A DNA stretch of 64,000 nt from Sandaracinus amylolyticus (GTDB lineage: Bacteria; Myxococcota_A; Polyangia; Polyangiales; Sandaracinaceae), in NCBI RefSeq assembly GCF_000737325.1, contig NZ_CP011125.1:9796001-9860000 (forward strand), read 5' to 3'. The notes under the pieces are model-generated. The model was not told the origin of the DNA, made no database searches, and was given only the letters and a program-made list of their open reading frames with translations. Every line of letters begins with the position of its first letter. The first letter of the stretch is position 1. Of the stretch, positions 21,720-63,489 are shown in pieces. Both the position numbers and the translations under genes were made by a program.

Positions 21720-21934
21720 GCGCAGGGAGCGCCGAATGTGGAGCGTGGCGCGCTCTGCGCCCCTACGCGCCGATGAGGTACGACCCTGCCCCACCCGGCG
21801 CGACGCTCCCCATCGCATCCCGGTGTCACCCCTGCGAGTGCATCGCTGCAAGGGGGGTTGCAGATCCGAAAGGCGCCCACGGAAACGCGCCGGCGCAATC
21901 GCGAGAAACGTGGGGCAACTGCTTCCCGAACGTC

Positions 21935-21950
21935 TGGCACGGCCCTCGCT
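21935..21950 (+). promoter_or_regulatory. Sigma-54-type promoter of the small RNA
   Basis: TGGCACGGCCCTCGCT matches the -24/-12 consensus TGGCACG-N4-TTGCT with one mismatch (TCGCT for TTGCT). The invariant GG and GC are separated by exactly ten bases. Transcription would start near 21961. Sigma-54 promoters need an enhancer-binding activator; I cannot identify its site. Confidence 0.65.
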
Positions 21951-21960
21951 AAAGCCCCAG

Positions 21961-22065
21961 ACGCGACCCGGTGACCTCGGCGAGTCTGCCCCCCCAACCG
22001 CCGATCACGCCAGGTCGCGCCAGGCCCGCGCTGCATGCCCCCCCCGCAGCGCGGGCCGCTTTTTT
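21961..22065 (+). ncRNA. Candidate sigma-54-dependent small RNA, about 105 nt
   Basis: The predicted transcript begins about 12 bases after the -12 GC and ends at a terminator. Its 5' part folds into one long hairpin: 21962-21968 with 22013-22019 (7 bp), 21971-21974 with 22005-22008 (4 bp) and 21977-21982 with 21999-22004 (6 bp), all perfect pairs, leaving a loop with TGCCCCCCC. The 3' part is a 12-bp terminator hairpin whose loop also contains TG followed by eight Cs. There is no ORF with a ribosome-binding site. Two C-rich loops suggest binding to G-rich (Shine-Dalgarno-like) targets. The plan resembles the Pxr RNA of Myxococcus, which is also sigma-54 dependent, but no sequence relation is claimed. 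Confidence 0.6.
22023..22065 (+). terminator. Rho-independent terminator of the small RNA
   Basis: Perfect 12-bp arms (22023-22034 and 22046-22057), an 11-base loop rich in C, then GC and six T residues (22060-22065). Strong intrinsic terminator in a region without an upstream coding frame. Confidence 0.9.
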
Positions 22066-22093
22066 CCGTCCGCGAATCGCGGCGTTTCATCTG

Positions 22094-22128
22094 GGACCGG
22101 GCAAGACCCTCAGGGTTTTGCCCGGTCC
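22094..22128. terminator. 15-bp inverted repeat after the anti-sigma gene
   Basis: Arms 22094-22108 and 22114-22128 pair with a single G-T exception and a 5-base loop. It lies 20 bp downstream of the minus-strand anti-sigma gene and 29 bp after the small-RNA terminator. There is no T-run on either side, so it may be a Rho-assisted or mRNA-stabilising hairpin between convergent transcripts. Confidence 0.45.
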
Positions 22129-22147: not shown

Positions 22148-22567
22148 TCAGGGATGCGTGGTCGGAGAGGGCGGCCCCTCCACCTGCACGAAGCTCTGCA
22201 CGGCGAGCCATCCCGTCGCGAGGAGCAGCGCCACCAGGATCGCGACCAAGACCGGCAGCGTGCCCCGCGGTCCCGCCTGCTCCGCGAACCGGTCGCGATA
22301 GAACCGTCCGCGGCTCCGCGCGCGCAGGCGCGACTGCACGCCGGGCAGCAGGTCCGGCGAGGCCTCGGGTCCCTCCTTCTGGTCCCCCGCGTCCCCACCG
22401 ATCGCCGCCGCGCCGCGCACCACCATCCGGTACGCGTCGAGCTCGTCCTGCAGCTCGGGGTCGCTCGCGAGCGCAGCCTCGAACGCGGCCTTCTTCGCGG
22501 GATCGAGGCTCCCCTCGATCACGTCTCCGAAGAGGTCGCGCGCCTCGTCGCTCGTCATCGCTTCCAT
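22148..22567 (-). CDS. Anti-sigma factor (membrane-anchored)
   Basis: 139 residues. The cytosolic N-terminal part (about 105 residues) starts MTSDEARDLFGDVIEGSLDPAKKAAFEAALASDPELQDELDAY, the acidic anti-sigma helix pattern. It has no HxxxCxxC zinc motif, so it is a non-zinc variant. A single membrane helix (LPVLVAILVALLLATGWLAV) and a short periplasmic tail follow. It lies 4 bp downstream of the ECF sigma gene on the same strand, as cognate anti-sigma genes do. It would hold the sigma factor at the membrane until an envelope signal releases it. Start could be the second Met. Confidence 0.75.
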   Translation of the reverse strand: MEAMTSDEARDLFGDVIEGSLDPAKKAAFEAALASDPELQDELDAYRMVVRGAAAIGGDAGDQKEGPEASPDLLPGVQSRLRARSRGRFYRDRFAEQAGPRGTLPVLVAILVALLLATGWLAVQSFVQVEGPPSPTTHP

Positions 22568-22571
22568 CGTC

Positions 22572-23282
22572 TCACTTCTTCCCCGACGACGCCTTCACCG
22601 CGGGGGTGCTCGAGCGACGCTCGCCGGTCGCGCGCTGCACGGCCTTCGCGAGCGCCAGACGCGCGCGGTGCAGCCGACTCTTCACGGTGCCCTCGGGCAG
22701 CCCGGTCTCCTGCTGGATCTCCTCGTAGCTCATGTTCTCGACGTCACGCATGATCACGAGCACGCGCTGGTCCTCGTCGAGCTCCATGATCGCCTCGCGC
22801 ACGATCGTCTCGATCTGGTTCGCCTCGGCCTGCTGATCGGGGCGCGCGACCTGCGCCGACGAGCTCATCGACGCGCTCTCGACCGCGCCGTGCTCGGCGA
22901 TCTCGTCGAGCTCCTTCTTCTTCCCGCGCGCGCGACGGTCCAGGTACTTGATCCGGTTCTTGCAGTGGTTCGTCGCCACCCGATAGAGCCAGGTCGAGAG
23001 CTTGCTGTCCCCGCGGAAGCCCTCGATCGACTTGAAGACCGTGATGAAGACCTCCTGCGCGACGTCCTCGGCCTCGCTGCGATCGCCGAGCATGCGCAGC
23101 ACGAGGCGGAACACGCGCTCCTGATACAGGCGGACGAGCTCGTTGAACGCGGCTTCGTCGCGTCGTCGGAGCCGCTCGATCAGCTGTTCTTCGTGGCCGT
23201 CGGGCATCGGCACGTGGAACCCGAGGGCCTCGGCACGACGCTCCAGCGCGGCGTGATCGAGATCGTCGGGAACGAGGTCCAC
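22572..23282 (-). CDS. ECF sigma factor, RpoE type
   Basis: 236 residues. Region 2 runs from AFNELVRLYQERVFRLVLRM through DRSEAEDVAQEVFITVFKSI and FRGDSKLSTWLYRVATNHC; region 4 is RVLVIMRDVENMSYEEIQQETGLPEGTVKSRLHRAR. A 55-residue linker between the regions contains a run of Ser and charged residues. Paired with a membrane anti-sigma gene. Start as GTG at 23282 is very near a candidate ECF promoter, so either the message is nearly leaderless or translation starts at Met26 (23207), where the family usually begins. It is likely an envelope-stress sigma factor and autoregulated. Confidence 0.92.
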   Translation of the reverse strand: MDLVPDDLDHAALERRAEALGFHVPMPDGHEEQLIERLRRRDEAAFNELVRLYQERVFRLVLRMLGDRSEAEDVAQEVFITVFKSIEGFRGDSKLSTWLYRVATNHCKNRIKYLDRRARGKKKELDEIAEHGAVESASMSSSAQVARPDQQAEANQIETIVREAIMELDEDQRVLVIMRDVENMSYEEIQQETGLPEGTVKSRLHRARLALAKAVQRATGERRSSTPAVKASSGKK

Positions 23283-25317: not shown

Positions 25318-25464
25318 TGCTCCAGATAGCTGGGTAGATGTTCCGATGGGCAGCTCTTCGAGAAGCCACCTCTCCTAGAACCAAGCGTCCTTCGAAACAC
25401 GCACCCGAACAGCGAACCTCGATCGAGACGGCGACCCTGAACGAACCGATGGAGCGACCCAGGC

Positions 25465-25484
25465 TGTGGAAAGCCTGTGGATCG
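25465..25484. promoter_or_regulatory. Two DnaA-box-like sites upstream of dnaA
   Basis: TGTGGAAAG (25465-25473) and TGTGGATCG (25476-25484) resemble TGTGNAWAA with one and two mismatches and are 11 bp apart, one helical turn. They are about 40 bp upstream of the dnaA start, as autoregulatory or origin boxes often are. Confidence 0.45.
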
Positions 25485-25520
25485 CTTGGACAAGTGCGCT
25501 CAACTGCTGGGGTATCTGGC

Positions 25521-27125
25521 ATGGACGGGCTGTGGGAATCGACTCTCGGCAGACTTCGCGGAAGGCTCGCGGAAGAGACCTACGCGACGTGGCTGGAGCC
25601 GATTCGCTTCGATGGGATCGAGGGCCGGATCGTGCGGCTGCGGATTCCGAACCGCTTCTTCGCGGATTGGATCTCGGCGCGGTATCTGCCCGACATCCTC
25701 GAGTCGCTCGCGGCGCTGACCGGCGCCGAAGGGCTGGACGTCTCGTGGGTCGTCGATCCGAGCCTGCAGGAGCAGGTGACGTCGGCCGGGCAGGTGGCCA
25801 GCCCGGCGGTGGCGGATCGTGAGGTCGCGTCGACCGGCGTCATGCTCGCGCCGGGCGCGATGCTCGCGGACGAGGCGATGCTCTCGCGCGGTGCGCGCAT
25901 GGCGGCCGCGGGTCGGGTGACCGCGCGTGCGTCGCGTCCGCCGGTGCGCGCGCTGCGCGCCGCGGGCGAGCTGCCCTTCGACGTCGAGGGCGGTGCCGAT
26001 CGCGCGCCGATCGCACGCCCGCCCGTCGCGCGCAGCGTCGCGGCGGATCGCGTCGCGCCGCCGGTCGAGAGCGGAAGTCCCGTGGGCGAGCAGTCGTATG
26101 CCCTGAACCCTCGTTATCTCTTCGACAACTTCGTCGTCGGGCCGTCGAACCAGCTCGCGCACGCGGCCTCGATCGCGGCGAGCTCGAGCCCGGGCAAGCG
26201 CTACAACCCGCTCTTCATCTACAGCAAGGTCGGCCTCGGCAAGACGCACCTCGTCAACGCGGTCGGCCATCGCGTGCTCGAGGATCGTCGTGACGCGCGC
26301 GTGCTCTTCCTGAGCGCCGAGCGCTTCACCAACGAGTTCATCTGGGCGCTGCAGCACAAGCGCATCGACGAGTTCCGCGCGCGTTATCGCGGCTCGTGCG
26401 ACGTGCTGGTGATCGACGACATCCAGTTCCTCGCGGGGCGCGAGCAGACGCAGGAAGAATTCTTCCACACGTTCAACGCGCTCTATCACGCGGACAAGCA
26501 GATCGTCGTCACGAGCGACGTCTATCCGCAGCACATCCCCGAGATGCAGGAGCGCCTGATCTCGCGCTTCCAGTGGGGCCTCGTCGCCGACATCCAGGCG
26601 CCGGAGCTCGACACGCGCATCGCGATCCTCCGCAAGAAGGCGGAGCAGGAGCAGCTGCACCTCGGCGACGACGTCGCGCTGCTGGTCGCGCAGGTCGTGC
26701 AGAGCAACGTGCGCGAGCTCGAGGGGACGCTGCTTCGTCTCGCGGTGCTCGCGGACGCGCAGCAGCGCCCGCTCGACATCGAGCTCGCGCGGATGGCGCT
26801 CGGCGCGCACCAGCCGAAGGGTCGCGACGCGCGTCAGACGAGCGTCGAGGACATCCAGCGCGCGGCCTGCGAGTACTTCCAGATCGGTATCAAGGAGCTG
26901 ATGAGCGATCGCCGGCACCGCAACGTGTCGCTGCCGCGCATGATCGCGATGTACATCTGCCGCGAGCGGCTCGATCTGAGCTACCCGATGATCGGCGCGC
27001 GCTTCGGCAACAAGGACCACACCACGGTCATGAACGCGCACCGCAAGATCAGCGGTCTCGTCGAGAGCGACGAGCGCGTGAAGCGCGCGATCGAGGTGAT
27101 CGAGCGCAAGGTCGGCATCAGCTGA
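25521..27125 (+). CDS. dnaA: Chromosomal replication initiator DnaA
   Basis: 534 residues. Domain I (residues 1-75, WESTLGRLRGRLAEETYATW), a long linker (about 80-195, longer than in E. coli), AAA+ domain with Walker A GLGKTHL and Walker B VLVIDDIQF, and domain IV with the DnaA signature DHTTVMNAHRKI. The protein binds DnaA boxes and opens the origin. Start ATG 25521 is chosen because domain I begins here; upstream in-frame codons lack a domain. dnaN is not next to it: a lipoprotein gene follows by 21 bp. The neighbouring non-coding region is a candidate origin. Confidence 0.97.
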   Translation: MDGLWESTLGRLRGRLAEETYATWLEPIRFDGIEGRIVRLRIPNRFFADWISARYLPDILESLAALTGAEGLDVSWVVDPSLQEQVTSAGQVASPAVADREVASTGVMLAPGAMLADEAMLSRGARMAAAGRVTARASRPPVRALRAAGELPFDVEGGADRAPIARPPVARSVAADRVAPPVESGSPVGEQSYALNPRYLFDNFVVGPSNQLAHAASIAASSSPGKRYNPLFIYSKVGLGKTHLVNAVGHRVLEDRRDARVLFLSAERFTNEFIWALQHKRIDEFRARYRGSCDVLVIDDIQFLAGREQTQEEFFHTFNALYHADKQIVVTSDVYPQHIPEMQERLISRFQWGLVADIQAPELDTRIAILRKKAEQEQLHLGDDVALLVAQVVQSNVRELEGTLLRLAVLADAQQRPLDIELARMALGAHQPKGRDARQTSVEDIQRAACEYFQIGIKELMSDRRHRNVSLPRMIAMYICRERLDLSYPMIGARFGNKDHTTVMNAHRKISGLVESDERVKRAIEVIERKVGIS

Positions 27126-49708: not shown

Positions 49709-52048
49709 TCACTTGCGGTCGAGCAGCTTGGCGAACGGATTGTTCGCGAACTGCTTCGGCGGCGGGCCCTTCTGCTGCGGGCCTCCACCACCACGCTGCG
49801 GGCCGCCGCGCTGCGGGCCGCCGGGCGCGCGCGCGCCGCCGTGCTGGTTGCCCTGGCGCGGGCCCTTGCTCGCTTCGTCGTGCATGCGCGCGCTCAGCGA
49901 GATGCGCTTCCGCGCCAGGTCCACCTCGAGCACCTTCACCGTGAGCTTGTCGCCGACCTTCACGACCTCGCTCGGGTCCTTGATGAAGCGGTCGCTCAGC
50001 TTGCTCACGTGCACGAGGCCGTCCTGGTGCACGCCGAGATCGACGAACGCGCCGAACGCCGTGACGTTCGTGACCACGCCCTCGAGGATCATGCCCTCCT
50101 TGAGGTCCGTGATCTCCATGACGTCGTCGCGGAACTTCGGCGGCTCGAAGCTCGCGCGCGGATCGCGCCCCGGCTTGCCCAGCTCCGCGACGATGTCGCG
50201 CAGCGTCGGCTCGCCCACGCCCTCGCCCACGTACTTCTGGATGTCGATCTTCTTCGCGAGATCGGTGTTGCCCACGAGCTCCGCGAGCGACACGCCCATG
50301 TCCTTCGCGATGCGCTCGACCAGCGCGTAGCGCTCGGGGTGCACCGCGCTCGAGTCGAGCGGGTTCGCCGCGCCGTGCACCCGGAGGAAGCCCGCGCACT
50401 GCTCGAACGCGCGCGGCCCGAGCCCGCTCACCTCGAGGACCTGCTGGCGCGACGTGAACGCGCCCTTCTCCTCGCGGTGCTTCACGATCTTCTTCGCGAG
50501 CGAGCCGCCGATGCCCGCGACGTACGCGAGCAGCGACGCGCTCGCGGTGTTGAGCTCCACGCCGACGTGGTTCACGCAGCTCTCGACGACCTCGCCGAGC
50601 TTCCGCGCGAGCAGCGGCTGGTGCACGTCGTGCTGGTACTGCCCCACGCCGATCGACTTGGGATCGACCTTCACCAGCTCGGCGAGCGGATCTTGGAGGC
50701 GACGCGCGATCGAGATCGCGCCGCGCACCGTGAGGTCGAGCTCGGGGAACTCCTCGCGCGCGACGTCGCTCGCCGAGTAGACGCTCGCGCCCGACTCGCT
50801 CACCGGCACGACCACCACGTCCGTGATGCCCGCCTCCTTGAGCGTCTTCTTCACGAACGACTCGGTCTCGCGGCCCGCGGTGCCGTTGCCGATCGCGATC
50901 GCGAAGGGCGTGTGGCGCTTCACGAGCGTGAGCAGCACGCGCTTCGCATCCTCCTCGCGCGCCGCGCCCTGCGACGGGTAGATCGTGTCGTTGACCAGGA
51001 ACTTCCCGGTCGAGTCCACCACCGCGACCTTGCACCCGGTGCGCAGACCGGGGTCGATCCCGATGACGCTCTTGGTCCCGAGCGGCGCGCTGAGCAGCAG
51101 GTTGCGCAGGTTGTCCGCGAACACGTCGACGGCGCTGCGATCGCTCTTGAGCTTCAGGTCGACGCGCACGTCGTTCTCGACGCTCGGCGCGAGCAGGCGC
51201 TTGAACGCGTCCGCGATCGCCGCGCTCATCTCGCCGCACCACGGCGAGCCGCGATCGACCTTCATCACGTTCTCGAGGCGCGGCACCACGCGCTCGCCGT
51301 CGACCTCGATCGACGCGCGGAGGATCCCCTCGCGCTCACCACGACGGATCGCGAGGAAGCGATGCGAAGGGATCTCCGCGATCGGCTCGCGCCACTCGTA
51401 GTACTGCTCGAACTTCGTCGGCTCCTTGATCTTGTCGGGCACGCCCTCGCTGACGAGGATGCCTTCCTTCTCGAACGCCTCGCGCGTCAGCGCGCGCACG
51501 TCGGCGTGCTCGGCGACGATCTCCGCGACGATGTCGCGCGCGCCGGCGAGCGCTGCCGCGACGTCCGCGACTTCCTTCTCGGCGCTGACGAACGCCTGCG
51601 CCTCGACGCGCGGATCACCGTCGGCGCTCTGCGCGAGGATGCGCAGCGCGAGCGGCTCGAGCCCCTTCTCGCGCGCGATCGTCGCGCGCGTGCGGCGCTT
51701 CGGCTTGTACGGCAGGTAGAGATCTTCGAGCGCCGCCTTCGTGGTGCACGCGAGGATCTTCTTCTTGAGGTCGTCGGTGAGCTTCCCCTGCTTGCCGATC
51801 TCCTCGAGGATCGACGCGCGTCGCTCTTCGAGCTCGAGGATGTAGGCCCGCTTCTCCTGGATGTCGCGGATCTGCACCTCGTCGAGGCCGCCGGTGACTT
51901 CCTTGCGGTAGCGCGCGATGAAGGGAACGGTCGCGTTCTCTTCGAGCAGCTTCACCACCGCCGCGACGCCGCGCGGCGGGAGATTCAGCTCCTGCGAGAT
52001 GAACGGAACGGGATCGAACGCTTGAGGCTTGGTCGACGTCTCGCTCAT
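49709..52048 (-). CDS. tex: Tex-family S1 RNA-binding transcription accessory protein
   Basis: 779 residues, normal for Tex. Order: N-terminal Tex helices (FISQELNLPPRGVAAVVKLL, PFIARYRKEVTGGLDE), the YqgF/RNase H-like domain (VIGIDPGLRTGCKVAVVDSTG), helix-hairpin-helix blocks (YVAGIGGSLAKKIVKHREEKG), and the S1 domain near residue 650 (GMILEGVVTNVTAFGAFVDLG). The last 60 residues are Gly/Gln/Pro-rich. Tex binds nucleic acids and affects transcription; in eukaryotes the homologue is Spt6. All domains intact. The ATG at 52048 is standard. Confidence 0.95.
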   Translation of the reverse strand: MSETSTKPQAFDPVPFISQELNLPPRGVAAVVKLLEENATVPFIARYRKEVTGGLDEVQIRDIQEKRAYILELEERRASILEEIGKQGKLTDDLKKKILACTTKAALEDLYLPYKPKRRTRATIAREKGLEPLALRILAQSADGDPRVEAQAFVSAEKEVADVAAALAGARDIVAEIVAEHADVRALTREAFEKEGILVSEGVPDKIKEPTKFEQYYEWREPIAEIPSHRFLAIRRGEREGILRASIEVDGERVVPRLENVMKVDRGSPWCGEMSAAIADAFKRLLAPSVENDVRVDLKLKSDRSAVDVFADNLRNLLLSAPLGTKSVIGIDPGLRTGCKVAVVDSTGKFLVNDTIYPSQGAAREEDAKRVLLTLVKRHTPFAIAIGNGTAGRETESFVKKTLKEAGITDVVVVPVSESGASVYSASDVAREEFPELDLTVRGAISIARRLQDPLAELVKVDPKSIGVGQYQHDVHQPLLARKLGEVVESCVNHVGVELNTASASLLAYVAGIGGSLAKKIVKHREEKGAFTSRQQVLEVSGLGPRAFEQCAGFLRVHGAANPLDSSAVHPERYALVERIAKDMGVSLAELVGNTDLAKKIDIQKYVGEGVGEPTLRDIVAELGKPGRDPRASFEPPKFRDDVMEITDLKEGMILEGVVTNVTAFGAFVDLGVHQDGLVHVSKLSDRFIKDPSEVVKVGDKLTVKVLEVDLARKRISLSARMHDEASKGPRQGNQHGGARAPGGPQRGGPQRGGGGPQQKGPPPKQFANNPFAKLLDRK

Positions 52049-63243: not shown

Positions 63244-63489
63244 TCAGGGCGCGTCGACGCCGTAGCTCGCGGAGTCGCGCATCCGGCACGCGCGCTCCTG
63301 ACACGACCACTCGCTGCGGAAGCCGCAGCCGGTCGCGGTCCACTGGCCCTCGACGTCGCTCTCGCGCACCTGGACCCAGCGCTCCTGGCACCCGAACTCC
63401 TGGGCGTGCTGGACGCGGATGCGGCTCGCGTACGGCGAGGTGCACATCCCCGCGAAGGCGAACGCGAGCAGAACCATGCGAGACGTCAC
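63244..63489 (-). CDS. Small Cys-containing exported protein or lipoprotein
   Basis: 81 residues starting at a GTG that overlaps the transglycosylase stop (GTGA). A hydrophobic leader (MVLLAFAFAGMC) ends in a lipobox-like AGMC. The rest contains four cysteines in an ordered pattern (GCQERWVQ, TGCGFRSEWSCQERACRM). No recognised family. Coupled with a lytic transglycosylase, so it may act in the envelope. Confidence 0.6.
   Translation of the reverse strand: MTSRMVLLAFAFAGMCTSPYASRIRVQHAQEFGCQERWVQVRESDVEGQWTATGCGFRSEWSCQERACRMRDSASYGVDAP

Follow-up and report, generated by a model that had tools for sequence, protein, structure and literature searches.

What is encoded by a sigma-54-type promoter that stands in front of two hairpins in the genome of Sandaracinus amylolyticus, and how would its product act? 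To our knowledge, myxobacterial small RNAs beyond Pxr are little known, and we know of no direct targets of Pxr. The genome (10,327,335 bp, a single contig) was studied here through a stretch of 64,000 nucleotides, referred to as the window, whose coordinates are used throughout. The locus is made up of the following features:

Up to 21719, plus strand: DUF829 hydrolase gene, the upstream neighbour of the small RNA gene
21839-21852, plus strand: upstream activator site 1, GTGCATCGCTGCAA, agreeing with 9 of the 10 consensus positions of TTKCR-N4-YGMAA and kept in the congener G002 save for one base
21858-21871, plus strand: upstream activator site 2, TTGCAGATCCGAAA, agreeing with 10 of 10 positions, a predicted site for a sigma-54 enhancer-binding protein
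21935-21950, plus strand: sigma-54 -24/-12 promoter, TGGCACGGCCCTCGCT, a textbook element that is retained in members of the RNA family
21961-22066, plus strand: predicted small RNA gene of 106 nt, with its start placed 12 nt past the -12 GC and its end at the T-run, supported by the fold z-score and covariation
21962-22019, plus strand: hairpin 1, of 7+4+6 bp, from folding and covariation
21989-21995, plus strand: run of seven cytosines (C7) in the loop of hairpin 1, a proposed pairing site
22023-22057, plus strand: hairpin 2, the intrinsic terminator stem of 12 bp with a large loop of 11 nt, from folding and covariation
22038-22045, plus strand: run of eight cytosines (C8) in the terminator loop, a proposed second pairing site
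22060-22065, plus strand: tract of six Ts (T6) of the terminator, from the sequence
22148-23282, minus strand: ECF sigma factor operon, the convergent neighbour on the opposite strand

The sequence-only reading of this locus had described a near-perfect -24/-12 element followed by a two-hairpin RNA without a coding frame, and most of that description holds. The promoter has its GG (21936-37) and GC (21948-49) with ten bases between them, the perfect 12-bp terminator stem and its six Ts are both present, and no dedicated coding frame is seen in the RNA stretch. Hairpin 1 has the 7+4+6 lengths given for it but not the perfect pairing, as the 4-bp part includes one G-U pair. The two upstream activator sites and the C7 and C8 loops are elements absent from that reading. 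The 106-nt RNA folds at -60.1 kcal/mol, against -37.4 +/- 3.5 kcal/mol for shuffled sequences (z = -6.5), and none of 200 shuffles equals it. When the window was scanned for the promoter only, with one mismatch allowed, sigma-54-like elements were not above chance in number, and so the case for a small RNA gene rests on comparison. One-mismatch elements of this kind lie at 63299-63315 (TGACACGACCACTCGCT) and 49854-49870 (TGGCGCGGGCCCTTGCT), both on the plus strand.

In the congener G002, only a single loop base and the end of the T-tract differ in the segment from promoter through terminator, and the ∼20 bp immediately upstream of the promoter are scrambled relative to the window: in the comparison of stems with flanks that had been suggested earlier, RNA and promoter are kept and the near upstream flank has diverged. 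A covariance model built from two sequences, those of the window and G002, retrieved a homologue from another genus of the same family (G003), whose promoter reads TTGGCACGGCCCTCGCTATA and whose stems are rewritten; a further candidate came from another family (G016). This search had been proposed jointly with a comparison with Pxr; the first part yielded these relatives, and the second no sequence relation, the family profile scoring Pxr nil. Weak R1 matches of the covariance model inside genes (L054, L057-L062) have no promoter, C-loops or terminator and were rejected.

The stems covary while the C-runs persist across members. In a plain MAFFT alignment of nine family members, approximate for the distant ones, two-sided changes affect 14 of 29 pairs (shuffles give 7.9 +/- 1.6), and the share of paired cells, 83.9%, falls to 36-47% once the partner is displaced by 1-3 columns. 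For the terminator stem, 94% of cells are paired and 8 of 12 pairs are changed on both sides; from the same alignment, RNAalifold retrieves the terminator as well as the outer stem of hairpin 1. Searches with blastn for the locus beyond the genus gave matches that were chance-level or terminator-only, exact-pattern scans of genome contigs for the window RNA and for Pxr returned nothing, and no plasmid match to the window RNA was found.

A search by architecture found at least 36 such genes in the order to which the genome belongs. Members have a TGGCAC-N5-TYGC promoter, at least one TTKCR-N4-YGMAA site and one to three hairpins, usually including a terminator, with C5-C10 loops; the folded RNAs expose these runs, and most two-hairpin members also show a C-run in the terminator loop. 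A C-run in a hairpin loop is present in all 36 tabulated members, being a feature that the tabulation required. The combination of C-run and promoter is matched by 25 of the order's 183 genomes, and the reversed pattern by two. The complete motif, which defines the family as TTKCR-N4-YGMAA sites, TGGCAY-N5-TYGC and a hairpin loop of at least five C, occurs in 20 of the 183 and in none of 134 genomes from the other orders of the class, with zero matches for the reversed-pattern control. All three features are found in the window RNA, and this gene is the only place in its genome with the complete motif. Because the stems and the number of hairpins vary among members, homology of the most distant ones rests on the promoter, the upstream sites and the C-loops, not on RNA sequence. 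On this comparative evidence the C-loop RNAs appear to be a previously undescribed family in one myxobacterial order.

Several variants of the gene were observed. Tandem duplicates 240-265 bp apart (L085, L132, L136 and L114, L133, L137), each copy having its own sigma-54 promoter, occupy two unlinked loci in two species, G007 and G009. One large family of the order has a one-hairpin form of ∼55-60 nt (L176, L183, L185, L186, L188, L189), in which the single hairpin is the terminator with a C8-C9 loop and the upstream sites and sigma-54 promoter are kept; this seems to be a reduced form. Genome G018 (contigs C528, C347) holds a two-hairpin element (L010/L052) with a C7 terminator loop that is 85% identical to the window's terminator.

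The upstream sites emerged from k-mers common to the upstream regions of members as a 14-bp palindrome, TTKCR-N4-YGMAA, which often occurs twice. Only at site 2, in the whole 10.3-Mb genome, does such a site precede a TGGCAY-N5-TYGC promoter by 38-68 bp. Among members, 25 of 30 have a site scoring at least 9 of 10 within 30-140 bp upstream, where shuffles predict ∼2%, a figure qualified by the partial derivation of the motif from these very sequences and by the relatedness of many members, so that the statistics are not fully independent. When genomes were searched by site and -24/-12 promoter, with no C-run required, 35 of the 183 genomes of the order matched against two for the reversed control, and a C6 run lay within the next 125 nt in 18 of 35 inspected matches, against a background of 4.1%. 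Among the matches are the very short one-hairpin forms. One match to site and promoter, in the congener G001, does not represent an RNA gene and was set aside.

Measured from the promoter, the sites gather at distances of ∼42, 52, 63, 74 and 85 bp. At a period of 10.5 bp, 55 sites show a helical phasing of R = 0.83, a value reached by none of 20,000 jittered sets, the statistic being inflated because related genes were counted separately. Relative to the promoter, the sites thus lie on the same side of the DNA helix, a periodicity that an enhancer-binding protein acting through DNA looping would require. No enhancer-binding-protein motif was found in the window or in the members' neighbourhoods examined for an activator gene. 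Taken with the promoter, the covarying stems and the order-wide family, the phased activator sites give strong comparative support to the earlier proposal of a sigma-54-promoted small RNA, here still a predicted one. An order-wide RNA family for which promoter, activator sites and a putative seed can all be named would be an immediately testable regulon.

The reading that we consider fairly likely is that of an Hfq-independent, trans-acting small RNA, switched by sigma-54 and an enhancer-binding protein, whose C-loops pair with G-rich ribosome-binding regions. Under some signal, the putative activator would bind the paired TTKCR-N4-YGMAA palindromes and, by looping of the DNA, open the -24/-12 promoter. 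The predicted transcript of ∼106 nt would be almost nothing more than two stiff hairpins, each presenting seven to eight cytosines; these C-loops would pair without Hfq to G-tracts in or near the ribosome-binding sites of presumed target mRNAs and so block their translation. No Hfq was found in the genome, in a search with a positive control, and its absence suits short pairing by G and C only; M. xanthus, too, is reported to have no Hfq (PMC5684412).

The pairing model is borrowed from 6C/B11 (PMC10470900) and NfeR1 (PMC10746234). The actinobacterial 6C/B11 RNA (Rfam RF01066) likewise has two stem-loops with at least six cytosines per loop (PMC10470900), and both hairpin loops of the window RNA (C7, C8) reach that number. 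The C-loops of 6C/B11 repress an mRNA with a G6 tract in its 5' UTR, and each loop is individually dispensable (PMC10470900); the same paper, citing Mai et al. 2019, describes action in trans on G-tract mRNAs by redundant loops with no need of Hfq. By analogy, the two C-loops of the window RNA are probably redundant. The 6C RNAs belong to a different phylum and have no known sigma-54 promoter or activator palindromes; in the window RNA the second hairpin is the terminator. The alphaproteobacterial alpha-r14 (NfeR1) and alpha-r7 RNAs also combine diverging stems with conserved C-rich anti-Shine-Dalgarno (aSD) loops, of which NfeR1 has three (PMC10746234). Their loop is CCUCCUCCC, not a pure C-run as in the window RNA, and NfeR1 is transcribed from a sigma-70 promoter that NtrC represses, in contrast with the sigma-54 promoter found here. 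The C-loop design of 6C and alpha-r14 recurs in a third group, here under a different predicted control, that of sigma-54 and enhancer sites.

Rfam does not place the window RNA in 6C, alpha-r14, alpha-r7 or Qrr: nothing in the window matches at the gathering threshold, the RF01066 covariance model scores 18 bits there (cut-off 47) and the ar14 model 15.5 bits (cut-off 58.8). The best ar7 score is that of a relative (L150 33-161, minus strand; 37.6 bits, E 4.5e-4, cut-off 60), and this sub-threshold value perhaps reflects convergence of C-loop RNAs. The Vibrio Qrr RNAs, under LuxO and sigma-54, are also small and sometimes multi-copy, and paired palindromes bound by a sigma-54 enhancer-binding protein switch them on. 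They act together with Hfq and are not known to carry C-loops. No Qrr match to Rfam was found in the window, and Hfq-dependent pairing has no counterpart in a genome without Hfq. The LuxO site TTGCAWWWTGCAA (PMC10162802) is close to TTKCR-N4-YGMAA, but the spacer of its palindrome is 3, not 4.

The C-run loops could serve a protein instead. The main rival to the pairing model is that they are repeated sites of a sponge which titrates a single-strand poly-C-binding protein of the cold-shock or KH type, in the manner in which RsmZ titrates CsrA and CrcZ titrates Hfq/Crc. The only constant features of the RNAs are the C-runs and their display in loops, the stems being free to change, and the three C-rich hairpins or tandem gene copies of several members suit titration. 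Such a protein is not known in this group, however, the one-hairpin members offer a single site only, and the similarly designed C-loops of 6C/B11 and alpha-r14 work by pairing; we regard the sponge as unlikely, and pairing with ribosome-binding regions as the better account.

The likeness to Pxr of Myxococcus xanthus, which the sequence-only reading had pointed out while leaving a sequence relation undecided, is real at the level of plan. Both RNAs are myxobacterial, ∼105 nt long and preceded by a sigma-54 promoter, with a strong intrinsic terminator stem, a 5' hairpin with a C6-C7 loop (in Pxr the six-C loop of SL1, mutation of which abolishes function) and tandem paralogues in some genera (PMC5568312, PMC5684412). 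A divergent Pxr, sharing its sigma-54 RNA ancestor with the gatekeeper that blocks fruiting-body development in Myxococcus, is nevertheless a distinctly improbable identity for the window RNA. The family profile gives Pxr no score, whereas a member outside the model beats all 1000 shuffles. Pxr has three stem-loops, with a conserved 8-bp segment in SL3, against two hairpins here; SL2 is absent from the window RNA, the Pxr terminator loop has no C-run, and the window terminator stem, GGCCCGCGCTGC, is unlike the Pxr stem. The SL1 loop of Pxr, taken from published primers and probe, is UUCCCCCCA, compared with C7 at 21989-21995. The loci and neighbours also differ: Pxr adjoins pxrR (nla19)/pxrK, the window RNA adjoins the DUF829 gene and the ECF sigma operon, and no PxrR/PxrK-type genes stand beside members. 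Pxr is described only from Cystobacterineae; Pxr-like DNA was found in none of 377 sampled genomes of the phylum, the window's own included, in a search that had no positive control and a sample from which Myxococcaceae were evidently missing. Placement of the window RNA in Pxr is not supported by these comparisons, and the shared plan stands.

That plan suggests that the C6 loop of Pxr is a target-pairing element. A wider scheme, which we offer as speculation and think rather doubtful, is that the order has a dedicated sigma-54 activator with the C-loop RNAs as its main output, these restraining translation broadly at G-rich ribosome-binding sites, and that Pxr represents an offshoot of this ancient switch, its C6 loop acting on G-tract mRNAs.

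That there is no small RNA at all, the hairpins being a strong terminator of the upstream DUF829 hydrolase gene and the promoter a chance match, is extremely improbable: an intrinsic terminator does lie downstream of this plus-strand gene, but the promoter and upstream sites are conserved along with the RNA while the flank between them is not, and many genomes repeat the architecture beside unrelated genes, the reversed controls yielding next to no matches.

Between the predicted small RNA and the convergent ECF operon lies a strong palindrome, GACCGGGCAAGACCCTCAGGGTTTTGCCCGGTC (22096-22128), which is fully conserved in the congener and probably terminates the operon. The operon encodes an ECF sigma factor and then a small protein (22148-22567 and 22572-23282, minus strand); the latter has no Pfam family above the cut-off and is anti-sigma-like by its position. 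The corresponding orthologous position beside this gene in other genera is mostly empty of RNA, and relatives of the small protein lie ∼6 kb from members of the C-loop RNA family in G003, G007 and G009. On the other side of the operon, 3.3 kb from the small RNA, is dnaA (25338-27125, plus strand), and the small RNA gene may therefore be close to the replication origin.
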